A stretch of 64,000 bases of DNA, taken from Trichosporon coremiiforme. Taxonomy: Eukaryota; Basidiomycota; Tremellomycetes; Trichosporonales; Trichosporonaceae. Positions within the stretch are counted from its first letter, which is position 1. Every line of letters starts with the position of its first letter. Both the position numbers and the translations under genes were made by a program. Shown piece after piece: positions 38,930-59,196 of the stretch. Under the pieces are notes generated by a model. That model was not told the origin of the DNA, did not search any database, and was given only the letters and a program-made list of their open reading frames with translations. Location: contig BCJJ01000005.1 in assembly GCA_039545355.1 (NCBI GenBank), positions 1,487,008-1,551,007 of the forward strand, written 5' to 3'.

Positions 38930-40681
38930 ATGTCCGCTGTCGCCGCCGACAAGAAGGCGCCCGTCGCCGCTGCTGAGATGGAGCTCAACCCCGAGCTTGA
39001 GACCTTTGTCGTTCCCGACAACTACGTGCAGCGTACTGTCGAGAACATGAAGTGGCTCCCGCCCGTCACCGCCAAGAACCTGTTCCAGAACATCCAGTGG
39101 ATTTCATTCCTGGCTCTGACCATCCCCCCGGCGCTTGCCATCTACGGTCTCTTCACGACTCCCTGGCAGCTCAAGACCGCTATCTGGGCGTGAGTATTTC
39201 ACACACTGCGCAGCCGGGTTGTGGCACCCCACGAAATTCGCGCCATCTTGCCGTCGGCAAGTGGCGGCGTTTGAGTGGCACAACCGATCTGATCCCCTAC
39301 TGACGAAACGGATGCTAACCTTCACAGTGTCGTCTATTACTTTATCACTGGCCTCGGTATCACCGCCGGCTACCACCGTCTCTGGGCCCACCGTGCTTAC
39401 AACGCCTCTCTCCCGCTCCAGTACTTCCTCGCCTGCGCGGGAGCTGGTTCCGTCCAGGGCTCGATCCGCTGGTGGTCTCGCGGCCACCGCGCCCACCACC
39501 GCTACACCGACACCAAGCTTGACCCCTACTCGGCTAATGAGGGCTTCTGGTGGGCCCACATCGGCTGGATGCTGATCAAGCCCCGTGGCAAGATCGGTGT
39601 CGCCGACATCTCGGACCTGACCAAGAACCCCGTCGTCCGCTGGCAGCACAAGAACTACCTCTCGCTCATGCTCTTCTTCGGTCTCGGCTTCCCGACTCTT
39701 GTCGCTGGCCTCGGCTGGGGTGACTGGTGGGGAGGTCTCTTCTTCGCTGCCGCCGCTCGTCTCGTCTTCGTCCACCACTCGACCTTCTGCGTCAACTCGC
39801 TTGCCCACTGGCTCGGTGAGACCCCCTTCGACAACAAGCACACCCCCAAGGACCACTTCATCACCGCGCTCTGCACCGTCGGCGAGGGCTACCACAACTT
39901 CCACCACCAGTTCCCNATGGACTTCCGCAACGCNATCAAGTGGTACCAGTACGACCCNACCAAGTGGTTCATCTGGACNNCNTCCAAGCTTGGCCTTGCT
40001 TCGCACCTGAAGACCTTCCCCGACAACGAGATCAAGAAGGGTCAGTACACNATGAAGCTCCAGCTTCTCGAGGAGCAGTCCAAGGAGATCAAGTGGCCCA
40101 AGCACTCGAACGACCTTCCCGTCATCTCGTGGGAGGACTTCCAGGCCGAGTCCAAGGACCGCTCGCTCGTNGCCATNCACGGTTTCATCCACGACGTCTC
40201 GAGCTTCATTGAGGACCACCCNGGTGGNGCCCACCTCGTCAAGCGCTCNATNGGCACTGACGCNACCACTGCCTTCTTCGGTGGTGTCTACGACCACTCN
40301 AACGCTGCCCACAACCTNCTCGCCATGATGCGNGTNGGTGTCCTCGAGGGNGGNATGGAGGTCGAGCACCTCAAGCTCCAGCGTGTTGCCTCATCCGACT
40401 CGCTCGCTTCCGACGGCGCCTCGTCCGCCTCATCCGTCTCGGTCCAGTCCATCATGTCCGAGGTCGAGACCCTCGACAAGCGCCACCCCACCTGGCAGCC
40501 CGCTGCCCAGGTCGCGAACCCGTACACGCTCCACGTGCCCCCCTCGGAGAAGATCCAGGTCACGAAGGGCACTGCCGAGCTCCGCCCTGGTCTCCTGCAG
40601 CGCCTGTCGACGCGCTCCAACGTCGCCTCGCCTTCTCTGACTCGTGCCGCCTCCTTCGAGTCCCAGGGTATCCCTGCCTAA
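38930..40681 (+). CDS. OLE1: Delta-9 acyl-CoA desaturase with C-terminal cytochrome b5 domain
   Basis: ER enzyme that introduces the first double bond into palmitoyl/stearoyl-CoA. Exons 38930-39189 and 39328-40681 give 537 residues. The three iron-binding His boxes are HRLWAH (103-108), HRAHH (140-144) and HNFHH (276-280). The cytochrome b5 domain spans about 355-425 with HPGG (384) and the distal His in DHSNAAH (410/415). A Ser-rich tail follows. Codon use is strongly biased to C-ending codons, as for a highly expressed gene. Twenty N calls fall in 39916-40354; 19 are at third codon positions, so the protein is readable throughout except one residue (NCN at 39980-39982). Confidence 0.97.
39916..40354 (+). 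other. Cluster of ambiguous bases confined to codon third positions
   Basis: N at 39916, 39934, 39958, 39979, 39980, 39982, 40051, 40171, 40177, 40222, 40228, 40249, 40252, 40264, 40300, 40318, 40333, 40336, 40351 and 40354. All but 39980 are third positions of Pro, Ala, Thr, Val, Gly, Ser, Leu, Arg or Ile codons. These are the only N bases in the window. Confidence 0.98.
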
Positions 40682-45023: not shown

Positions 45024-46647
45024 CTACTGACTGTCGTCCTTCCGCTGAACTTGGACCGCCTGCGCCAGCTCCGACACGTGGTTCACCTGTGCTGCCTCGA
45101 ACTCGTCTTCCGCTTCAGGCTCCGTGATTCTGCACACGGCCGGCAGGGCGAACAGGAGTGCACCGGCAATGACGCCCCAGTTTGCCGCGAACTGCTTCAT
45201 CGGCGCGACGTGGCTCGCGGTGAGTCTGAACGCGACCGCGCCGCCAACGCACTGCAAGCTCTTATACACTCCAACAAACCTGGCTGCGTCCCGGGGCTGG
45301 TCGCACATGGCCCCGAGGAGCCAGTACGCCAACGCCTGCCAGGCGGCGTCGAGGGCGCCGTACGTTGTGTAAAGAATACAGGGGCCGACGAAGGTGCGCG
45401 CGTCGGCGAAGTCGATGAAGCGCAACTTCTGGCGCCGGTGCGCCTCAGCCTCGAACCAGCGCTGATACGCCAGGCCGCCGCCCATCGCCACGTTGCCCAG
45501 GACAAAGACGGCGCACCAGCCGAGCAGGGCGCGGCCGCGCCGCGAGAGCGGCGGGAGGTCGAGCAGCAGGCCGATCAGGACCCCGCCAAGCATCTGCGCG
45601 CCCCAGTAGAGCGCCGAGTTGAGGGATCGCGAACGCAGTGTGAAGCTGCTGCCATTCATAACGTTTTGCTGGTACGAGTAGAAGAAGTTTGCGCCAAAGC
45701 ACAAGGGCAGGAGGAAGAGGAGCCGCGGCTCGTGCCGCAGCTTGGCGATTTGGGAGAGCTCGCGCCGCGCCGTCGAGGCGAAGACGGCGTACCACTTTCG
45801 CAGGCGCGAGGCCGTCGTCGGGGGAGACAGGGAGGAGAGGGAAGAAGGGTGGGAATTGTGTGAAGCTGGCAGAGGCGCGGCGCGGCTGCCGTCCGTTCGG
45901 ATTACGAGGTGAGGTGGAAGAAGGAAGGCGGACAAACACCACCCGAACACCATTATCACCATGAAGGCGATGTACGTCCCGTCGCTGACTGTGCCGGCGT
46001 GGTGGCGGTTGTAGCTGGATGTCAGCTTGTGGTCGCCGCAGCCATCCGAGCTCGGCTCCCTATCCTACTCACTTCAGTCCCAAGCTGATCAAACTTCCGA
46101 TCGCCCCACCCAGGTTGAACACGACCCAGAAACCAGCGATGCTCCGCCCCTTCTGTCCAGGCAACGGGTAGCTTAGCATGACAGCGCCCTGCGTGACCCA
46201 GAGGAGCGTCGCGCCGAGTCCAAGCACGGCTCCAGAGACAATCACGAACGCGCCATCCTTGGCCCATCCGTGCGAGTACGCGAGCAAGCTGGCCGTGTAG
46301 AGCGGATACGTCCAAGCGCCAAGGGCCATGCACCGGTTCCCGAGGAGGTCATACATGGGCTGACCGACGAGGAGCCCCGTGGCCGCGCCGACAGAAAGCA
46401 AAGCGACGCTGCTGTTCGCGCCGACGGTCGGGTCGAGCTGGCCGCTGCCGCCGAGCCCCTGGATCGCATTGTACATGCCGGGCAGGCAGAAGCAGCAGAA
46501 GGAGACGAGCCACAGCTGGGTCCACGCCCTGTTGCGGTAGGGCACGTCCGCATTAGAGGACGGCGCGCGCACGCTCGTCACGCTGGGCACGCCCGGCACG
46601 ACGGAGCGCACCTCGTCCTCTTGCAGGGAATGCTTGCTCAGGGACAT
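45024..46647 (-). CDS. UNC93-like MFS membrane protein
   Basis: Multi-pass membrane protein of the UNC93/DUF895 branch of the major facilitator superfamily. Exons 46647-46073 and 46014-45024 give 521 residues with about 11-12 hydrophobic segments. Typical features are GMYNAIQGLGGSGQLDP after TM1, ATLLWVTQGAVMLSYP, and the sequence around the splice site (GFWVVFNLGGAIGSLISLGL). The start shares an 841-bp divergent spacer with the amino-sugar kinase at 47489, so the two are probably co-regulated. I infer that it imports an amino sugar or muropeptide; whether it is related to fungal GlcNAc permeases (Ngt1) needs a comparison. Both tails are hydrophilic. Confidence 0.85.
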
Positions 46648-47488
46648 GGCGCCCGCCCGGAGGGGCCAGAAGGGCGAGAGGAAGGCTAGAATGCTGTCAC
46701 TGCTGTCACCGGGTCAGGGATGTCGTCGGTCTTCGTGTTGTGGAGATGAGTACGTGCGGTCGTCGTCGGGAGGGCGAGGACATGGCCGCTAGCGGGATGT
46801 TGCGGGGCCGAGGACTGCCAGGATTTGCGGCCAACTGGTGATCGTCGGGGCGTTCGCGAGGCGCTCTGGAGCCAGTAGCAAGCGTTCACGGCGTGTGGAG
46901 TGGCGTCGGCGGTAAGAAGAGGAAAGGCGTCGTGTGAGCGTCGAAACGAGGACAATGGGGATGTTCCGTCGGAACTGCCAGCCGATTCCCCGCCTTCGTT
47001 TAGTCTGTTTCGGCGTCTGCGTGTATGCGCCTCGTCGTCGGGGGCGTTGTTCGTGGCGTTGACGCACGAGTTTTGGCGTGGTATGCTCGTTGACGAGACG
47101 ATGCGACGAGTTCAAGGAGGGGTAGGGACGTGTGCAGTTGCGGGCCGAAGGGCGAAGCACTGAATGGGCGAAAACTGCCGTGTGCCCTTCCTCACTCCCG
47201 TCGATCACTTGACCTGGCCACATCCTCGTACGGTGCACCCGGAGTCCCCGCGGGCCCAAATCTGCATTCTCTGTGCAGCGTGCAGTACAGTGCAGTGCAG
47301 TGCAGTGCAATGCAGTGCCATGCCGTGCTGCTCACCGCATACGACACGATCGCAACGACCTCATCATCGGCTGCCGTCGGTAGCGCTCGCTAGCTGGCAG
47401 GGCATGTTGCCGCCGGTGGACCGGTGATTTTCCCGGCGCTCGGGCCGGACCCCAACTTGACATTGGACCTAGCACGTGGAGCTAGCTC
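46648..47488. promoter_or_regulatory. Divergent promoter of transporter and amino-sugar kinase
   Basis: No gene. It contains a (GTGCA)n-like microsatellite at 47276-47328 and, close to the kinase start, a CGG-N4-CCG inverted repeat (47414-47423) with further CGG/CCG triplets (47434-47449), the kind of site bound by Zn2Cys6 regulators. Confidence 0.45.
47276..47328. repeat. GTGCA-type microsatellite
   Basis: About nine imperfect GTGCA/GTACA/GTGCC units in tandem, within the divergent promoter of the transporter and kinase genes. Confidence 0.75.
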
Positions 47489-48563
47489 ATGCCGGCGTAC
47501 CTCTGCATCGACGGGGGCGGGACAAAGACGAGGGCGTGGATCGCGGTGCGCGATGAGGGGGGGACGCGGCTTGCGCACGGCGTCGCGGGGTCGGGGAATT
47601 TGTGAGTTGAGCCGCGAGCGTAACGAGCAACGGGGCATGGCTGACGTAAGGACGTTCGGCGTCGATGTCGTCCTGGCAGCGACGAGGGCGGCTGTGTCGG
47701 CGGCCGTGGCGGGTCTGGACGGGGTCGAGGGTGCCGAGTCGCCCTCGTTCGAAGCAGTCTGGGCGGGCTTCGCGGGCTGCGGCCGCATATCGGACCGCGA
47801 GCTGCTGTATCCCCACCTCGCGCCTTTGTTTCCCGGTGCGTCGCTCAGACTCACAGGCGACGGCGATCTGCTGTGCGCTCCGATCGAGGGGCTCGGCGCG
47901 TCGCTCATCTGCGGAACTGGAGCGCTGGCGCAACTCTGGTCCATCCCCCCTCACCCTTCGGAGCCAGTGAGGCTCCTCAGGTCTGGCGGATGGGGACCCG
48001 TCCTCGACGACCGGGGCAGCGCGTGGTCGCTTGGCAAGGCGGCCGTGTGCTCTGTGCTGTTCTACGCTGCGAACGAGTTACCGCTGTTAGGCTGGCAGGA
48101 GGCGCTGCTTGCTCGTCTTGGGACAGACGCGGAGGGCCTGATCCGTACGACGTGCGCGCTGGACAGGACACTGTCGCACGCCGACGCCGACTCGAAGCGC
48201 AAGACGACGATCGCGGGGCTCGGCGACCTGGTCGTCACTGCCGCAGAGGACGGAGATCAAGAGGCGAAGAGCATTCTGCGGCGGATAGCGGGGGAGGTGT
48301 GCGAGATTCTCGAGCCGGTACGAGCGAAACTGGACGAGATGGCGAGCGTCGAGCGAGGTGGAGAGAAGGTCCAGAACGGCGAGGGAAGTGAGGAGGAGGA
48401 GGGAGCAACACTAGTCGTCGCAGGCAGCCTGGGACTGAACGCGATGTTCTGGTCGTTTGTCGAGGAGCAGTTCAAAGCCCGTGCATGGACGTGGTCGCGC
48501 ATCGCCGTCGCGGACCCCGCGCGGGCGGGGTTGGAGCACCTGCTCCGAAACGCTAGCGCGTAG
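47489..48563 (+). CDS. BadF/NAGK-family amino-sugar kinase (GlcNAc/MurNAc kinase candidate)
   Basis: ATP-dependent 6-phosphorylation of GlcNAc and possibly MurNAc. Exons 47489-47601 and 47651-48563 give 341 residues, the usual NAGK length. The phosphate-1 loop CIDGGGTKTRAW is at residues 6-17, and the adenosine/phosphate-2 region reads LICGTGALAQLW followed by GWGPVLDDRGSAWSLGK, as in N-acetylglucosamine kinases. The join gives GSGNLTFGVDVVLAAT, where related kinases have a substrate-binding GPSN. Known relatives differ in specificity: bacterial MurK accepts both MurNAc and GlcNAc, and human NAGK also phosphorylates muramyl dipeptide. Placement next to MurQ and AnmK argues for a role in muramic/GlcNAc salvage. 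Confidence 0.85.
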
Positions 48564-49614
48564 TGTCGTCGCTGCAGACGAGCGCCTAGGCAACCTCCTT
48601 AACCGCTCCAGGCTGACTGGACAAGTTCAGCAGTTGTAGCAGCGTACGTATGATTATGCATCAATCTCAGACTCTCATGTGCCCATGTGCCCGCGTGTCC
48701 ATGTGCTCTCAAAGGAGGCTAGGAGAAGGGAGACTAGCGAGTTAAAGGCTGGCGTAGGGGCAGCAAACTGATGAAACAGTGACATCCTGGGCATATCCGA
48801 CAGCGCGCGACATGTGGGGTGCGTTGCTCCAGGAACTATCTTGCCCTCTGCTCGCTGAGCACCCCGAGAGCATGAGAAGGCCCGAGAGGGTTGTGAGTGG
48901 GGAGGGGAAGCAAGGGGGGCAAGAGAGGACGGGGCAAAGAGATTCCCGAGGTGGTCAAGGGGGACCAAGTGCTCGCTCCAATCACCGGTGGTGCGAAATG
49001 CAACTCATGATTGCTGGGACCGTCTGCTCCTTGGGGGCTGGGGCCGCGTAGCTGCGTAGCTGCGTATTGGTGGTGCCAGGCTGCGCTAGAGAGATAGTCT
49101 CATCATGTTGTAAAGGACGTTAGGGGGTTACCACGCTGCACAGAGGACTCAGTATAGTGTGGCGCAAAGCACCAAGGCCCAGAAACTCAAAGTAAGGCTG
49201 GGTCTAAACTGGACGTCTTGGGGGTAACTCGCCGAGGGCGCCGAGACCGAGTTGTATGAGCCACACGCAACTCGGCTGCCCTATTGCGAGTCCTGCCCCG
49301 GTTCAGGTCCCGACGTGCACCACGCGCTGCACCAAACTCTGCGTCTGGCCCTCCCTCCCTCCCTCACCGAGAGTTTGGGACGTCGCCATCCAGTGCCGCG
49401 CCGTAGCCAGAGTCAAAGCGGTAAGTCGCCGGCATGTCCGGTCCGCTGCGTTCCGTCGTCCCCATGTCGGAACTCATCACGACGGCGTTGGCCGACACCC
49501 ACGCTCGTTCGCTCGCGTAAGAAAGAGAAACGGTCTACGTCTATCATGCATGGGTATGCTAGGGGTTACACTAAGTCGTACAAGCAAAAGTCCTTTGTGT
49601 ATGCGGTACGTAGG
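48564..49614. other. Convergent spacer, 1.05 kb
   Basis: Lies between the 3' ends of the kinase and MurQ genes. Only short chance frames seen. Confidence 0.45.
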
Positions 49615-50747
49615 CTAGAGATTCGCGAGATCCTCCTCGAGCGCGTGCTTCAGAATGCCCCCCGAGGCCCTCAGTCTCCTCTCTGCCTCCTCCCTTCCGC
49701 ATCGCCAGCGCGCAGCCACCATGGCGGCCTTGACGCTTCCACTCTCGTCAATCAACCTGTCGACCGCCTCGTCATTGCTGAGATCCACACCGAGACGTCC
49801 TCTTTTTGAGTACGGCTCGAGCACGGTGCGGACAATATGTCTCGCGCGGGCGACGAGCTTGGCGTTACTCCGCCTCACGTCGACCATGAGGTTTCCGTGG
49901 GTCTTGCCACATCGCAGCTGGACGCCCGTGGAAAGCATGTTCAGGATCATCTTCGTCGCCGTGCCTGCCTTCATGCGGGTCGAGCCCGTGATGACCTCGG
50001 CGCCGACTGGGCATTCGACAGACAGCTCGGCGACCTCAGCGAGCCGGCTCGGACTGACGCACGCGACAGAGGCGGTGAGACAGCCCTGCGCGCGCGCCGC
50101 CTCAAGCGCACCAAGGACATACGGTGTCCTGCCCGACGCGGCCAGGCCGATCACGGTGTCCCGAGCAGGGTCGAGCATGAGGTCTGCAATGTCAGTCGCT
50201 CCAAGGTCGGGGGAGTCCTCAGCCCCCTCGACGGAGTACTGGATCGCACGGGGGCCGCCGGCGATGAGGCCGAGCCACTGGCCGTACGGGGCGGAGAATG
50301 TCGGCGGACTGGGGTCAGCATGCGTTCTGACTGATGTGACGGTGTGAGCACACTCACATTTCGCTCGCGTCGAGTATACCCAGACGCCCACTCGTCCCGG
50401 CGCCGACATAGACGACGCGCCCGCCGCGCGCCACACGAGGGTGTACTGCGTCGACCAGAGCTGCAACGGCGGGAATGCACCGCTGCACGGCGAGCGCGAC
50501 AGTCATGTCCTGAGCGTTGATCATCTCTGCAAGGATCAGCACATCACACCTCCAGACTGAGCTTTCTCCTTCTACGCAGATGCAGAAGACAAGTCTCGTG
50601 CCCGCTGCGCGGACACTCGACGAGCGACTCACCCATCATCTCCACCGTCGACACGACGTCAATGTCGGCCGTCCCCTCATTCCTCGCCTCGGTCTGGAGA
50701 CCCGCGATGCGGTCAATGTCGGACGCCGGCGCCATGGGTATTGTCAT
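49615..50747 (-). CDS. murQ: N-acetylmuramic acid 6-phosphate etherase
   Basis: Cleaves the lactyl ether of MurNAc-6-P to give GlcNAc-6-P and D-lactate. Exons 50747-50633, 50526-50358 and 50308-49615 give 325 residues (298 in E. coli). A single SIS domain carries VVYVGAGTSGRLGILDASE, LIAGGPRAIQYSVEGAED, VIGLAASGRTPYV and GAEVITGSTRMKAGTATKM. Glu94 (DASE) and Glu125 (EGAED) align with E. coli Glu83 and Glu114, the residues implicated in catalysis, with identical spacing. The C-terminal helical bundle (SNDEAVDRLIDESGSVKAAM) is also present. Animal GCKR is a double-SIS relative twice this size, so this is a true etherase type. The first codons upstream of the ATG are TTG, so no longer start is supported. 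Two introns show it is a resident nuclear gene. Confidence 0.93.
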
Positions 50748-51997
50748 GGGTGTGTTGTTGCGAGGTTTCTTCTGCGATGAGTCGCCCAAGGTGATGAAAC
50801 TCGGGGCAGGTGTGCCGCCGTAGTTGCGTGCGAGGTAGAGAAAGTCGCCGGTGGGTCGCTCGGTCGGTCAGACTGGGTTGTCGCTTGTGGGGCCTAGTTG
50901 AGTTGTGAGGTGGGGCTGTCGGAGTCGAGAGAGGTGAGACGGTGGCGATTCTGATTGCAAGTAGAGTCGAGAGACAGTGTGACAGTGACACAGTGAGAGA
51001 GGGGGGAAACAGTCATGTCGGAAGGAGCGAGGAGGGTAAGATAATTATCGAACCCCGTCGTCCCCAGGGCCCAGCAACAGCAACAGCAACGGCAACGGCA
51101 ATGGCAGACAGCGCTAACCACCGCCAGTCACCGGAGATAGAATACCGGCTGGGTTGTCCCCATGTGTCGCCGTACCTTGCGAGTCCTCCGTGCCTTGGCC
51201 AGACTCGACGTTCAGTCAGCGTGCGCGGCGCAATGCGCCAGTGCGCCAGTGCGCTGCGAGCATGCGTGAGCAGAGCGGGGAGGGCAGGCGAGTCCGAGGT
51301 AGCCCGGAGAGAGGGGAAGAGAAGGGGACGGGTCGAAGGGGGGGAGAGGGAGGGAGAGGGGTAGAGGGAAAGGGGGACCCTAGGGACCCGCTCTTGCGCT
51401 CCAAACTTAGGTCGGAGGGGGCTTTGCTGCCGAGTTCGGCTTATTCCCCGACACCTGGCGAACCTTCCTGAACCAAGTCAGCCAGACGCCTGCAACGCCT
51501 GCAACACGCAAAAGGTATGCAGGGAGCCGTTCGCCGCGAATGCCGAGCGCTGCAGCGGTTGGCTGGACTGCAGAGTCTTGTGCCATGCATGCACAAAACT
51601 GACGACGTTTGGACGAAAACGCCCACAGTCAAGTCGCCGCCGAGGCCGCGCTGTTGCCGCCGGCATTGCCGAGTTCAACTCAAAAATTGCCCATGGCACA
51701 TGCTCATTCCGGGATCGACGTGGATGACACAGCACAAACCTGGGCATTTCTGCCGATGCTAGCTCTGCCTGGCGTGCCTTGACGTCTTGGCATCTTGACG
51801 CCTCGACGTCTTCATGGCACGTAATCGCAGCCCGCGATAGTTCGACAGCCGTGTCCGCGACACTCGTCCGATACTGCAGCCTCGGCTCTCGTAACCTCCA
51901 AGTCGTCACCGGCCTCACCGGCCTCACCAGCCCTCACCCCGATCACCTCTCCGACGTCCGGATTCTGTACAAAATGCATGTTCTGCTCTCTAAGAGC
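50748..51997. promoter_or_regulatory. MurQ promoter region and 3' flank of the regulator
   Basis: No gene. Close to the MurQ start lie repeated CGG/CCG triplets (about 50809-50865), including CGG-N10-CCG. A purine-rich stretch (GGGGGGAGAGGGAGGGAGAG, about 51339-51358) occurs further out. Confidence 0.4.
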
Positions 51998-54621
51998 CTA
52001 CTGCTGCTGCCTCACGCTCCCCCAATGGTCCAAGTCCCGCGGCGGCGGGCCCGGCTGCCACACCTCCTGGTGCATCACCGTCGGCATGGGCACGCCCCCG
52101 TCCAGACCCAGGACACCGCTGATGTCGGCCCAGAAACTGTCCGAGCCAGTGTACGCCATGCTCATGTCTATATCTGTGAACACGGGCAGAGGCGGGGGAG
52201 GGGGCGCGCCTGCGTCTGCGGCACTGCGTTCTAACCGTTCACTGAGCCGTTGCAGGAGCTTGGAGCCAGAGGTCTGGAACATTGGAGACAGGTGCACGAA
52301 TTGCTCATGGCACGTATGAACTAGGGGGTCTGTTGTTAGCTAAATCTCCGGGTGCCGCGGTGGCGGCGAGCTGGGTGTGCAGGAGACTCCACTCGGTACT
52401 CGACGCTGCTATCGGTCCGTCTCACACCGACACGGACATGAATAGCGCGGCGGCTGACGGTACCTGGCTCTTGGAGCTCGGCCCAAGGCACCATAGACCA
52501 TGAGTCGCTCGCGCGCTCGGAATTCCGGAATCCGAGCGGGCCAGCATCGTGGAAGTGTTATTTGGAATAGCTTGGTCCACACCACACTTGGCCAGGCCAA
52601 AACGAGTAGCGGGTGAAATGGGTAGAGGATGAATGGAGGGGAGAATTGAAAACTCACCTTCCGGCGGCAGCGAAATTGCTGCAATCAGCGCCGTGTGCAG
52701 GAACAGTTTCGGCCAGAGATGCAGGCTCCCTGCCCACTTGCCCGCGGCCAGGTTGAGCAAGTCGCTCGCGCTCTCGTGCAAGCGGTGCATATCCGGCTGC
52801 GCGCACTGGTTCAGATACCCGTCGACCACAACAAGTGCGACATGGTAGTACAGGCTGATCAGGTCCAGGAGGAATTCGCGCCGGTGGCCGACGGGGAGTT
52901 TGGCGTTCTCCGCGTCTGTGGGTCAGCTAGCTCGGCTTCACGCAAGCGCAGCATTGAAAAAGTGGCTAGGGCTAGGGGGTGGACTCACGCTGAATCTCGT
53001 ACAGCCACTTGGGCGCCCAGCGCTCCAGGTCGTGGCGGCAGTTGCGCAGGACGGCGACCTCGGCGTATGTCAGCGGGCTGGGGCCCGCCTTGCCCGTCAG
53101 CGCCGTCATGACGATACTCCTGGCCGTGGTCAGGCTGCGGTTGACAATGCCGAGGGCGTCGAAGAGCTCGTTCAGCGCGTGCAGCAGGAGATGACTCGTC
53201 CTCCTGGCAGGCACGCCGCGCGGCGGGCGGTCGGGCATGATCGGAATCGACAAATGGAGTATACCATGGGACACCGAGGTCATCTCGAGGAAGTCCCACA
53301 CCCGCCTGTCGCGCTGGTTACTCTGGTTGGGGGTGGCGGTCTCGACGAAACCGCCATAGATGAGACCGGCGGTGATCTCGTCCGCCTTCCAGAAGAAAGA
53401 CCTCGCGATGCCGAGTCCAACGACGTCGTCCCATGTCTTCGGGACTGTGATGTACAGCAGCCGGATGAGGGAGCGCTTGAAGAGCTCCTCCCACCTGTCT
53501 GCGGGCGTGGACAGGCGGTCGCTGAATCGCTTCGCTGCGGCCGTGACGACGGCAGAGAAGAGGAGCGGCGACGGCGTCGGCTGCTCCGTCGAGGCTGTGA
53601 AGCCGAAGAAAATGGCGAGCGAGTCGTAGAACCTGAATAGGAGTCAGCGGGTGAAGATAAGAAGTAAGCTCACGACTCCCAGAGAATCGTCGCGTCGTCG
53701 ATGGACACGTCGAGCGGATCGGGGCGCTGCAATTCGTTGAGCGCGGGCTGGAGGATCTCCCGGAGCCCATGCAGGTGACTCGGGAGGACGAAGCGAGACG
53801 CCGACTCGCGCCTGTGGTGACTGTGATCGTGGATGGGACTGCTTGAGCGATGCCTCTTGCGAACGTGAGGATCATCGTGATAGTCCCTCGCCTCCCTCGC
53901 GTCGCGGCGTTCGCGTTCGCGTTCACGCTCGCGCTCGCGCTCGCGCTCGTGCTTGATCTCATTGAAGCGAGGCGGCACCCCGCCCTCAACCTTGACCTGC
54001 CGCTGCAGCTCTGCGTTGGCTGCGCGCACCGCAGCAATCTCCTGTTGCAGGTTCTGCAGCCGCATCTCGACGCTCTGCTGCCAGCGCAGGTCGTCAACGA
54101 GGATGGCGGCGTTCGCGCGCGGACGCACGACGCACTCGACTCCGTCGTCGCGACATCTGGCGTCAGCGACAACAAGCTCTAGCTGGGGACTCGGGCTGCG
54201 ACCCTCGGGCGAAGCGAGACAGAGGAAGAGGACTCGCACGACCGCTCGACTCTCCGTAATCGGGATCGCCCACGGGGCTGCGGGGTACGGCGAGCGACGG
54301 GGCGAGCGGGGCATTCACACTCGCCATGAATGTGACTCACCTGGTGCAGGGCTTGTCTGGGCCTCCGTCGCACTTGTCTGTCAGTAGATGGCACGCACGC
54401 ACAAGACGTACCTTTAGTTTCTGCCTGCGGCAGTGGAGGCAGGCGCTGGTGCGTTTAGGTTTGGGCTGGCCTGGGTTGCCTGGGTGGGCTGGGTGCGCCA
54501 CATCAGACGGTGGACCTGATGGGCCAGGGGGAGCAGATGGAGCAGAGGGGGCAGAAGGAGCGGAGGGGGCAGAAGGACCACTGGTCGAAGCCGAGGGGGC
54601 CGAGTGATCGGATCTAGGCAT
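51998..54621 (-). CDS. Zn2Cys6 fungal transcription factor within the muramate cluster
   Basis: Nuclear DNA-binding regulator. Exons 54621-54412, 54372-54341, 54156-53674, 53632-52989, 52915-52658 and 52320-51998 give 649 residues. The binuclear cluster is assembled across two introns: C61-x2-C64-x6-C71-x7-C79-x2-C82-x6-C89. A coiled coil (about 100-135) and an Arg-Glu alternating run (about 142-156) follow. The middle region (240-540) has the helical pattern of the fungal transcription factor domain, with FYDSLAIFFGFTAS and FFWKADEITAGLIYGGFVE. The N-terminus is a Pro-Ser-Ala repeat. Sitting between MurQ and AnmK on the same strand, it is the obvious pathway-specific regulator; that role is inferred. 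Confidence 0.88.
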
Positions 54622-55045
54622 TGAGAGGATGGAACAGTGGATGAGATAATGGATCTCTTGGGCTCGAATCGTCGGCCAAAACAGCGAGAAGGCCTACCTA
54701 GTCGAGTCCTAGTCCTGGCTGCGTAGTGCTGCGGGGTCACCGGGGGGGTTAGTGGGGGTAGCGGGGGTAGCTGGGGTTGCGAGGGTTGCTCAGGTGAAAG
54801 ATCACCGCCGAGCGAGTCACGTGCGCCATCTTACCTCCTCCCTCTGCTCCCCAGCCCCGCCCCAACCACAGCACAGCACAGCACGACCACTGCTAACCAC
54901 CGTCGGATGCTATGTTTAGCCCAACCCTAAAAGTGTGCGTCGGCCAAACTCTCCGAAAGGCGGCCCGCGACCCCACCGCCTCGCACATAACATGCATGCC
55001 ATTGCCATCGTGGCCATCGTGGTCGCGCGACTACCAAGTGCTGTG
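54622..55045. other. Spacer upstream of the regulator
   Basis: This 424-bp stretch holds the regulator promoter and AnmK 3' flank. It contains a G/T-rich run (GGGGTTAGTGGGGGTAGCGG, about 54747-54766). No gene seen. Confidence 0.45.
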
Positions 55046-56418
55046 CTACTCGAGCACGACCCGTCCGAGCACATCCGTGTCATCTTTGAGAGCACGTCTC
55101 ATCAGAGATGCAAAGTTGTCTCCCGGTGTCACCTTGCCCAGCACGACCTCGGGACCAGCCTCGAGAGCGGAGACACGCGCCCGCCGCCCGCCCACGCACA
55201 GGTACCCGAGCAACGCGAACAGGACAGCCTCCTTGGCCTCGGCCGGAAGCTTATGCTGCGTCGCTTCGTCCAGTCTTCTCACCCGCGCACCCGGGAACGC
55301 ATCACTCAGCGACGCCATCAGCACCGCGTTGCGCGCTCCCCCACCGCACACTAGCAGGTCTGCTATCGGCCCGTGACTCTGCTCGACGTGGGATTGCAGT
55401 GACCGTGTGATGGACAACGCCGTCAGGCGAGTGACGGTTGCGACGACCGCGTCATCGTCATCCGATAACCCACGAGCACGGAGGTCGGAGACCATCTGCC
55501 GCCCCATCGTCTCGGAGAACAGCTCCCTTCCCGTCGTCTTCGGCGGTTTCCTGGACAGGTACTCGCACTTGCTCAGCCAGTCCTCGACGTACTCTTCGTC
55601 AATCCGGTCCGCCCCAGCCAGTGCCCGCCGTCCGCCCGTGTCACACTGCTCACGGCCCTCAGTCAGAGTGCGAACCGCACAGTCAATGAGCACGTTCCCC
55701 GGCCCCGTGTCGTACGCGAACCACCCGTCAGTGGCCGGAACAACAGACGCATTAGCCATCCCGCCCATGTTCTGGCACACGACGAGTCTGTCACTCCGTA
55801 ACAGGGCCGACTCGAGGACGCCGCTTAATGGCGCACCTTGCCTTCCCACGGCGAGCTCGGCGACGCGAAAGTCACTGGCAACGGTGCTGTCGTTCGTCAG
55901 CATGTATGTTCCTTACTGACTGAATCTGACTGGACTCAACTCACACCCCGGTTCTTTGTGCGATGACAGCGCTCTCACCCATCTGCAACGTCGCTGCTCT
56001 CCTCTGCCCGTTGGCGTATCCACCGCTTCCGCACGAGACGGGATGATGCCATAACGTCTGCCCGTGGCTCGCGATCAGGTCCACGTCCTCGGTCTTCACG
56101 CCTGACTCGAGCACTGCAGACGCAAACACCTCGCCAAGCTCAAAGTTCAGGTCGCATACTTCCTCCAAGCTTGTCGCTGCATCTTTCCGACAGAGAGCCA
56201 GAATCCGGGACCGAAGAGCAGGCGGCACGGGATGCTCGCTGTAGTGCTGCAGCGACAGCGAGACGTCGGATGCGTTCAGCGCCGAGATACGCACGAGGGC
56301 GACGTCCACGCCTGGAGTCGAGTCAGCCAGGATGGGTGGGGTGTCAATAAAGTGGAAGGGCGAACGCACCATCAACAGACGTGCCGCAGTTCAAGCCGAG
56401 CACGTTGAGCGTCGCCAT
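55046..56418 (-). CDS. anmK: Anhydro-N-acetylmuramic acid kinase
   Basis: Opens the 1,6-anhydro ring of anhMurNAc and phosphorylates O6 to give MurNAc-6-P, the MurQ substrate. Exons 56418-56370, 56311-55945 and 55886-55046 give 418 residues (about 370 in bacteria). Family motifs occur in order: LNCGTSVDGVDVALV (9-23, ATP-binding loop), LIASHGQTLWHHP, VASDFRVAELAVGRQGAPL, QNMGGMANASV, AYDTGPGNVLID with the catalytic-base Asp at 198, TTGRELF, and VCGGGARN. The bacterial MSGTSLDG is NCGTSVDG here. The longer C-terminal part has an Asp-rich insert (SDDDDAVVA). The small 49-nt first exon was found from the conserved N-terminus. Divergent from the transporter at 57375. Confidence 0.93.
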
Positions 56419-57374
56419 GGGTTTGAGGCTGACACGGATGGGACAATGCCAAGACTTGCAAGCGGGCTAGCAATCAAGGAGGCCCTGCCCTCAGCCTCAG
56501 CGGCCAGTTCGCCGATGACCCGCAGGTGGCAGCACCGTAGCCTTGGTCGAGGTAAAGCCTTATCTGGGCCCATTGCACACGGCGTCCATACAATACAATC
56601 GCAAAGCAACGCAATAGGTCAGCAGTGTGTCGACTCGAGGATCGGCGAAATCAGCCGTTCCGAGACGAGTGCCGATCTTCCAGGCACATCGTCGTATGCC
56701 TCAAGGAACGTGGGGACTATTCCAGCATTCCAGTCTTGTGCACACTGCGTTCTTGCCACGGTGCACGTCGCCCTGTGTCCACCCAGAGCCAGAGCGCCGG
56801 CGGGGAGCGCCGCGCCGAGATCCGTCCATTCTCCAAGGGCGCCGAGCTTCCTCCGTTGTTGATTGGCACTCGGGGCAGGGTCCTCTATCTCGAACCCAGC
56901 ATTAAGATCTGCATAGCTCAGTTGGCAAACGAGAGTCCAGAGTGCACAGAGTGCACAGAGTGACAGACATTGCACGGCCTGCACGGCATGCACGGGTCAG
57001 TCGACGGTCTCGCCCGCGTCATGTCAGGGTCTCGATGCCAAGCCAGAGCCCACAGTCGAGACAATATCCATAAAATCTTGGTCCTTACGGTGCGTGCCGT
57101 GTGCGCCTGTGCGCCGTGTACGGCAGTGTGCCATGGACATGCCGAGGGTCCGAGTCCTCGATCACCTCCACTGCTGGTACCCGCGCGATATCCGTATCCG
57201 TATCGACGCTTATGCACGCCCACTTGCTTCTTACTCTGACTCGCAGAAACCGAACAAGCATGCCGTCGCTACCCCTGCCGAGGTTCCCGCGGCTATCTTA
57301 GATTGCCTGTCGCAACATGCATTCCCCGACACACTCTGCTCTCGACAGTGAACAGTGACAAGGGCTGAAGGAGG
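56419..57374. promoter_or_regulatory. Divergent promoter of AnmK and the Dal5-type transporter
   Basis: No gene I can support. It contains two adjacent 9-bp-period repeats: AGTGCACAG units (56941-56960) and three GCACGG units (56972-56977, 56981-56986, 56990-56995), so that CGG triplets recur every 9 bp as CGG-N6-CGG-N6-CGG. Such direct CGG repeats are plausible Zn2Cys6 binding sites. Confidence 0.45.
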
Positions 57375-59196
57375 ATGGGCCGACCAAGCGCAGTCCGGAC
57401 GCTGCTCTGGGGCGAGCGGCCTCAGTGTCGAGCAGAAAGGAAGCTGCTGTTCAAGCTGGACCTCGTCATTCTCGTGAGTACGACGAGATACCGGCGAGCT
57501 GTACCGAATACGACTACGACTCTCTCGCAACCTCGCTGCGCTCGGTTGCTCGCTCGCTCACGCCTAGACCTACTCGTGCATCTCGTTCTGGGTCAACTAC
57601 CTCGACCGCGGCGCGCTCAGCAACGCCTACGTGACGGGCATGAAGGAGGACCTGCGCCTGCACGGGCACCAGTTCAATGTCATCAACACGTGCCTGACTG
57701 TGGGATGTGAGTGGGCTCGAGTCCTGGCCGCCTGTCCCTGTTCGCCTCCTGGCCAGTATCGCCAGTATCTGTCAACTGCTAGCTTTGGACCCAAGTGGAG
57801 GGGAGGAGCAGGAGCAGAAGAAGAAGGAAAAGCAGCAGCGCTGACAGCAGACATCATTGGCCAAGTACCCCACGCGCTCGCGATCCAGGCCGTCCCGCCG
57901 CGTGTCTGGTTTCCGTCCATGGTCATCCTGTGGGGTCTGCTGACGATGATGACAGCAGCAGCGCGGACGTTTGCGCATCTCTGCGTCATACGCTTCTTCA
58001 TGGGTCTAGTCGAGGCGAGCACGTACTCTGGCACGCAATACGTGATCGGCGCCTGGTATCGTCCCGAGGAGATGGGGAAACGCACGGGGCTCTTTGCAGC
58101 CAGCGGGATGGCGGGCACCATGTTCTCTGGCGCGCTTATGGCAGCGATCAACTGCACGCTGGACGGCCGAAGAGGTCTGCCTGGGTGGAAGTGGCTCTGG
58201 ATCATTCTCGGATGCATGACTGTCCCTGTTGGGCTGGTGGGGTATGCCGTGTTTCCGGATCTGCCGGGGACGACGAGAGCGTTCTGGTTGACTGAGAGTG
58301 AGAGGAGGCTCGCGGTGGAGAGACTGCCGAAGCCGCCGGAGAGGAGCGAGGGGCATCGACTGGGGATGGATCTCGCTAGGCGTGTTCTGCTTAGACCAGA
58401 GTTGTGAGTTCACTCCTGTACCCACTCCCCGGCAGACTGGAAGGCATGGCTGACGACCAGTCACACCCTGTCCCTCTTCTGGGTCATCGGCGGCGCGCTC
58501 GAAGCCTTCAGCACGCAGTCCTGCATGCTTTTGTGGATGAAGGCCGTGGGCCGCTTCACTCGAGAGCAGAACAACACGTATCCCCTCGGCGTGATGGCCG
58601 TCGGCATTGTCGCGACACTGCTGACCTCGGTCGGCATAGACGCCAGCGGGAAGCACATGGTCTGGGGCTTTGCGGCGTGCGCGCTCCAGATCGCAGCTTG
58701 CGGGATGTTGATCGCGCCGGGGTTAAAGGACGGGGGCGTGTTTGCGGCGTATTGTACGTGGACATGAGATAGCAGGCAGAGCTAATGAAAGACCTCGCCG
58801 GAACCGCATACATGATCCAACCCGTCTGCTTCACATGGGCGAACAAGATTCTCCTCCGCACGGGAGACGAAGCAGCGAGAGCCGTGACGCTGTACGCGAT
58901 GAATGGCGCGAGTTCGGTCCTGTGAGTATCCCTCCGACGTGTGCACGTGCATTGTCAATCTCAGCTTTACGTTCTGGGGCATCATTCTGTACCCCGTCCC
59001 CGACGCTGACAACTTGTTTCGCAAGGGCACGATAGCCATGTTCGTCGTCAGCGGTCTGCTCGCTGTTTGGATCGTAGTCGTGTGGTACCTCGAGGAATGG
59101 GTGCTGAGACGGGTCCCGCCGCCCTCGAAGGAGGAGCCGGTCGTTGAGATTGAGGCCACGGGGAAGGAATCCGACCCATCGATTGTCAAGGTATAG
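57375..59196 (+). CDS. MFS transporter, Dal5/Liz1 anion:cation symporter type
   Basis: Plasma-membrane proton symporter of the allantoate/pantothenate permease family. Exons 57375-57473, 57568-57706, 57851-58403, 58461-58753, 58792-58921 and 58965-59196 give 481 residues and about 12 membrane segments. Diagnostic pieces are RKLLFKLDLVIL before TM1, WVNYLDRGALSNAYV at TM1-2, FFMGLVEASTYSGTQYVIG and WYRPEEMGKRTGLFAASGM. The acceptor at 58460 (CTGACGACCAG) was chosen because it alone keeps the frame. Members move organic anions such as allantoate, pantothenate and nicotinate; MurNAc and lactate are also carboxylates, so import of MurNAc-type acids is a reasonable inference from the divergent pairing with AnmK. 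Confidence 0.87.

Follow-up and report, generated by a model that had tools for sequence, protein, structure and literature searches.

A putative muramic-acid salvage gene cluster in the basidiomycete Trichosporon coremiiforme

To our knowledge, muramic acid is found in bacterial cell walls only, and it is a soil marker for bacterial remains. Entodinium, Naegleria and Bodo are protists that take up prey. For Entodinium, the available text of one report describes MurQ together with N-acetylglucosamine (GlcNAc) kinase and anhydro-GlcNAc kinase transcripts, from which its authors infer digestion of bacterial walls (PMC6925433). MurQ of Naegleria gruberi and Bodo saltans was interpreted in the same way in the accessible part of a second report (PMC7052976), and an AnmK and a homologue of glucokinase regulatory protein (GKRP) are given for Naegleria in the excerpts of a third (PMC9928731). 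In the openly licensed literature we found no report of muramic-acid catabolism in a fungus. Here we analysed a window of 64,000 nucleotides from the fungus Trichosporon coremiiforme (assembly GCA_039545355.1, contig BCJJ01000005.1, positions 1,487,008 to 1,551,007), in which six adjacent genes, A to F, occupy positions 45024-59196 (Table 1). With a probability of about 0.72, these genes form a cluster for muramic-acid catabolism or salvage, which would take up muramic-acid sugars of bacterial origin and break them down to GlcNAc-6-phosphate (GlcNAc-6-P) and D-lactate.

All six genes are intact and intron-bearing, with GT-AG introns and no internal stops in the spliced models. A sequence-only reading had placed six genes here and had described in-frame introns and conserved catalytic motifs in the enzymes; spliced models and family scores confirmed the genes, and both the introns and the motifs, namely two glutamates of MurQ and the aspartate of DTGPGN in gene E, are present. 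In the proposed pathway, the UNC93-type transporter and the second transporter of the major facilitator superfamily (MFS) would import N-acetylmuramic acid (MurNAc), anhydro-MurNAc or small muropeptide sugars. Judging from family and neighbours, the BadF-type kinase would phosphorylate free MurNAc to MurNAc-6-phosphate (MurNAc-6-P), and the AnmK-family kinase would yield the same product by ring opening and phosphorylation of anhydro-MurNAc. MurQ, for which the family match is strong, would then cut the lactyl ether of MurNAc-6-P, releasing GlcNAc-6-P and D-lactate. NagA- and NagB-type enzymes encoded elsewhere may convert GlcNAc-6-P to fructose-6-phosphate, and a D-lactate dehydrogenase may oxidise D-lactate; members of these families were found in the genome. 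The Zn2Cys6 protein, by its position, would regulate the cluster.

The MurQ protein (gene C) scored 326.6 bits against the NCBIfam equivalog TIGR00274 (cut-off 302), aligned over residues 17-319 of 325. Glu94 in a DASE motif and Glu125 in VEGAED are shared with two solved MurQ chains, and we take them to be the counterparts of the catalytic glutamates Glu83 and Glu114 of E. coli MurQ. Such a strong family match predicts a MurNAc-6-P etherase. Alternatively, the protein could be a GKRP-like sugar-phosphate-binding regulator of the adjoining kinase, since its N-terminal domain is GKRP_SIS_N in Pfam and fungal homologues are listed by some sources as glucokinase regulator. We consider this highly improbable, as the etherase cut-off is exceeded, both presumed catalytic glutamates are retained, and the protein is closer to solved MurQ (E 4.6e-75 over residues 13-255) than to GKRP (E 2.7e-19). 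GKRP is a long protein with two SIS domains and a C-terminal lid, and the listed solved chains comprise 619-638 aa; of three GKRP models, GKRP_SIS_N alone passed its cut-off with the 325 aa of gene C.

The enzymes of the cluster are not confined to T. coremiiforme. A quick tree of 66 MurQ rows, including 40 of the 120 listed matches and 23 of the 27 prokaryotic loci with MurQ described below, united the MurQ homologues of several fungal genera in a single clade of 19 rows with 100 in the Shimodaira-Hasegawa-like approximate likelihood ratio test (SH-aLRT). The clade comprises Cutaneotrichosporon, Naematelia, Kockovaella, Fusarium, Sporothrix, Clonostachys, Dactylonectria, Cephalotrichum, Aspergillus and Moniliophthora, and four of its rows are unnamed or metagenomic. 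This 66-row tree singled out no donor of MurQ. Three composite proteins (P0042, P0044 and P0150) entered the trees with the relevant part only. One of them, the Aspergillus nidulans MurQ model P0042, continues, judged by eye, into a BadF-type start.

Gene E encodes a PF03702 protein (252.6 bits; Pfam cut-off 24). Its Asp198, in the DTGPGN motif, was invariant across 20 aligned rows and is presumably the catalytic residue of the AnmK family. In a quick tree of 62 rows, 57 of them drawn from 120 listed matches, fungal PF03702 proteins fell into two clades. Clade I (11 rows, SH-aLRT 99) contains levoglucosan kinase. The gene E protein lies in the sister clade, clade II, which was recovered with 24 rows at SH-aLRT 99 and with 25, including Saitoella, at 93. 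Coniochaeta sp. 2T2.1 carries one protein of each clade.

Clade II AnmK and MurQ are associated in some other fungi, as judged from the best 120 of 7999 MurQ and the best 120 of 4647 AnmK matches. Consecutive locus tags were found in Fusarium nematophilum (ACJ41O_013621/013622) and Fusarium lateritium (ACHAPJ_006655/006654). Fusarium decemcellulare combines both in one gene model, P0150; this join may be an annotation effect, because its other MurQ, P0043, stands as a separate model. Among the matches listed, MurQ and clade II AnmK lay on one contig or on equally long contigs in five of six assessable species: the three Fusarium species and, by equally long contigs, Naematelia and Dactylonectria.

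The same enzyme families meet in prokaryotes. A genome scan returned at least 80 AnmK-family loci with 32-43% identity, one of them titled as an archaeal metagenome-assembled genome (MAG), and neighbours were counted in the available flanks (up to 6 kb) of the listed loci. MurQ was present near 27 of 80 loci (14 of 43 where flanks were complete), a BadF-type kinase near 17, both together near 11, NamZ near 19 and a NagZ-type glycoside hydrolase of family 3 (GH3) near 18. In an Anaerolineaceae MAG (L065), genes for a solute-binding protein, GH3, AnmK, MurQ and a BadF kinase follow each other, and Paenibacillus vini (L041) carries MurQ, AnmK, NamZ and a BadF kinase in a single stretch. The metagenomic protein P0044 is a fusion of a partial AnmK with MurQ. 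Separately, frames of 616 and 614 aa from Hydrogenedentes MAGs (L048 and L057) combine a BadF-type kinase with MurQ.

Genes A to F recur collinearly on contig C26, with protein matches for all six and 74-84% DNA identity over aligned segments longer than 1 kb. This was the one further close locus for each of AnmK, MurQ and the kinase, and the MurQ and kinase searches gave weak matches elsewhere; PF03702 matches in the genome were restricted to the two copies of the cluster. Nonsynonymous (dN) and synonymous (dS) divergence between the copies, calculated after Nei and Gojobori (NG86), amounted to 0.046 and 0.719 for MurQ, 0.115 and 0.586 for the gene B kinase, and 0.143 and 0.915 for AnmK. The dN/dS ratios, all far below 1, show that purifying selection acts on the three enzymes. 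The host genome comprises 42.04 Mb in 134 contigs. Trichosporonales hybrids are described in the available text of two papers (PMC7026411 and PMC12820176), the first of which lists T. coremiiforme among them with 42.35 Mb. Because the known hybrids have about the same genome size, the two copies are probably the sub-genomes of a hybrid. The spliced genes and the closest named MurQ relatives, from Cutaneotrichosporon (66% identity), identify the window as fungal DNA. GC content at third codon positions (GC3) was 0.74-0.84 across genes A to F and 0.77-0.86 in four frames nearby; contamination as the source of the cluster was ruled out by the introns, the collinear second copy and the similar GC3.

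Gene B is a candidate MurNAc and/or GlcNAc kinase. Its best solved relative is a MurNAc/GlcNAc kinase (E 3.9e-6), and it shares 34% identity over 260 aa with the MurQ-adjacent kinase of the Anaerolineaceae MAG. Scores remained below the cut-offs for BcrAD_BadFG (30.7 bits; Pfam, 31.5) and for NagK_SO3507 (E 3.7e-11, but 43 bits; NCBIfam, 370). Residues 150-161 and the corresponding part of its relatives P0241-P0245 read GGWGPxLDDRGS or nearly so, where solved MurK and NAGK have GGWGxxxGDEGS; LDDRGS also occurs in the prokaryotic-looking P0246. A structure of P0241 predicted without an alignment reached a predicted local distance difference test (pLDDT) value of 39 and was not used. Gene A scored 26 bits against UNC-93 (PF05978; cut-off 22.9) and 28.9 against MFS_1, below the cut-off of the latter. 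UNC93 proteins presumably share family 2.A.1.58 of the Transporter Classification (TC). NGT1, a known fungal GlcNAc importer, is assigned to TC 2.A.1.58 in the accessible text of PMC2636803; gene A is a candidate amino-sugar importer. Gene F scored 103.3 bits against MFS_1 (PF07690; cut-off 33.4) and gene D 35.5 bits against Zn_clus (PF00172; cut-off 21); from its position, the Zn2Cys6 protein is likely the local regulator.

A cluster for ordinary uptake and catabolism of GlcNAc from chitin, with muramic-specific activities minor, is another possible reading. In its favour are NGT1 as a fungal GlcNAc importer, the existence of fungal GlcNAc clusters (available part of PMC4950302) and the kinase family of gene B, to which GlcNAc kinases belong. 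We find this explanation quite improbable. The fungal GlcNAc route, as published in the accessible portions of PMC2636803 and PMC4950302, includes no MurQ or AnmK step, and NagA- and NagB-type genes as well as a further BadF-type kinase are located elsewhere in the genome. The NagA- and NagB-type matches are separated by about 2 kb on C28, where the pair was typed, and again on C16. The further BadF-type kinase (C21:113988-114350 and C7:167134-167493) shares 30-31% identity with a part of gene B and is a candidate for the ordinary GlcNAc kinase. The strongest Glucosamine_iso pair (C11 and C28:412 kb) was rejected as NagB, as it is of the 6-phosphogluconolactonase type, judged from the C11 member. 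Ten matches to FAD-linked oxidases, a family that includes D-lactate dehydrogenases, were present, as were GH3 and glycoside hydrolase family 20 (GH20).

A number of observations speak against muramic-acid salvage, and several of them concern gene E. Among solved proteins, levoglucosan kinases come closest to it (E 2.7e-80), followed by AnmK (E 2.2e-34), and it stays below the cut-offs of all 14 listed NCBIfam AnmK models, with a best score of 344.5 bits against 387; we therefore do not class it as an established orthologue of AnmK. A GRQGAPL motif common to gene E and levoglucosan kinase occurred in none of the 80 listed prokaryotic AnmK-family frames, and a comparison of clades I and II gave 15 differing columns, none informative on substrate. 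Moreover, the available text of PMC9476349 reports levoglucosan kinase activity for an AnmK-family protein of R. toruloides. Together with the divergent arrangement of the neighbouring genes E and F, these data could mean that gene E is a levoglucosan kinase with transporter F for 1,6-anhydroglucose, placed by chance beside a separate amino-sugar module of MurQ, kinase and UNC93 transporter. This main rival, which concerns gene E only, appears unlikely. Levoglucosan kinase falls into the other fungal clade, MurQ adjoins clade II AnmK in Fusarium, and the genome has no PF03702 match outside the two copies of this locus. An AKE[A/G] motif, also common to gene E and levoglucosan kinase, is not confined to the latter: it occurs in 22 of the 27 listed prokaryotic AnmKs with MurQ nearby, including L065, L041, L060 and L029, in 37 of the 53 remaining listed loci and also in P0044, where AnmK is fused to MurQ. 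The AnmK label of the sequence-only reading needs correction in that the closest solved enzyme is levoglucosan kinase.

The remaining counter-evidence touches the other parts of the proposed salvage route. In Cephalotrichum gorgonifer, the sixth assessable species, MurQ and clade II AnmK lie on contigs of unequal length, and 37 of the 80 listed prokaryotic loci carry none of the four markers MurQ, BadF kinase, NamZ and NagZ-type GH3. In the kinase tree (25 rows, including 14 of 17 loci after a length filter and all six listed matches), the fungal clade sits on a branch of length 2.83 with a poorly supported backbone, and gene B is divergent. Single exons of the NagA and NagB candidates scored below curated cut-offs. 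No promoter motif common to the cluster was established from its six promoters. Among 39 half-site spacings of the Zn2Cys6 type, CCGN9CGG ranked highest with 2.4 times the shuffled expectation, a value chosen from many; no 8-10-mer was common to the six promoters and none to the shuffled sequences, and the k-mer comparison therefore had no power. GH25 lysozyme, NamZ and Amidase_2, the wall hydrolases searched for, had no match in the genome; bacterivory is therefore unsupported and scavenging fits better, the fungus probably taking up sugars released by other organisms. Of what had been proposed from the letters alone, a cluster for catabolism of MurNAc and anhydro-MurNAc is supported by the MurQ equivalog, the conserved second copy, the fungal pairs of MurQ and clade II AnmK, the prokaryotic loci and the NagA- and NagB-type genes. 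Regulation is suggested by the presence of a Zn2Cys6 gene, and bacterivory is not supported.

The chances are even, in our estimate, that a wider interpretation applies, in which the full muramic-acid route, with clade II AnmK as a true anhydro-MurNAc kinase, occurs widely, if patchily, across Dikarya. Eukaryotic importers and a regulator devoted to the route would have been added to ancient enzymes of bacterial derivation, walled fungi would use peptidoglycan sugars released by others, and fungal levoglucosan kinase would be the sister of the anhydro-MurNAc kinase. If fungi consume muramic acid by means of dedicated genes, they would represent a sink for the walls of bacteria that has gone unrecognised, and bacterial remains would nourish them in a new way. 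A possible natural substrate would also be at hand for some fungal members of the AnmK family, which is currently studied with regard to levoglucosan use. The cluster makes fungal growth on peptidoglycan sugars directly testable.

Table 1. Gene models and shared intergenic regions of the cluster (positions in the window).
Feature	Position	Strand	Details
Gene A, UNC93-type MFS transporter	45024..46647	-	521 aa, exons 46647-46073 + 46014-45024
Gene B, BadF/NAGK-type sugar kinase	47489..48563	+	341 aa, exons 47489-47601 + 47651-48563
Gene C, MurQ (MurNAc-6-phosphate etherase by family)	49615..50747	-	325 aa, three exons
Gene D, Zn2Cys6 transcription factor	52658..54621	-	five exons modelled to 52658, 3' end provisional
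Gene E, AnmK-family kinase	55046..56418	-	418 aa, three exons, Asp198 in DTGPGN
Gene F, second MFS transporter	57375..59196	+	481 aa, six exons
A/B divergent intergenic region, common to both	46648..47488	.	gene-model coordinates
E/F divergent intergenic region, common to both	56419..57374	.	gene-model coordinates

Outside the six genes, a HECT ubiquitin ligase domain (PF00632; 44152-44862, +) stops just short of the cluster and likely marks its left boundary. A nitronate monooxygenase gene (PF03060; 59596-60648, +) directly follows gene F; its membership in the cluster is possible and unsupported. Parts of a cytochrome-b5/fatty-acid-desaturase frame (39569-40681) translate to X owing to unreadable bases.

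Compared with known systems, the cluster resembles bacterial MurNAc gene sets (L065, L041, L060 and L029), which bring together the same three enzyme families, MurQ, a BadF/MurK-type kinase and AnmK, along with NagZ or NamZ. Unlike them, it has introns, two MFS transporters and a Zn2Cys6 regulator and lacks GH3 and NamZ; in L065, transport is represented by a solute-binding protein. Levoglucosan kinase (solved chains 4zxz, 4yh5 and 5tkr, which we take to be from Lipomyces) has the PF03702 family and GRQGAPL in common with gene E and is its closest solved sequence; it differs in belonging to the sister clade and not to the one with the MurQ-adjacent AnmKs. Bacteria-eating protists likewise have a eukaryotic MurQ; here the host is a fungus, the gene stands in a cluster with transporters and a regulator, and the eukaryotes with MurQ gain a lineage whose members do not engulf prey. 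The fungal GlcNAc cluster (HXK3/NAG5, DAC1, DAM1, NAG3, RON1 and NGT1), as described in the available text of PMC4950302, is similar in its clustered amino-sugar catabolism, its regulator and its MFS importer. It differs in its enzymes and in its Ndt80-like regulator, and its route would receive GlcNAc-6-P from the cluster described here.

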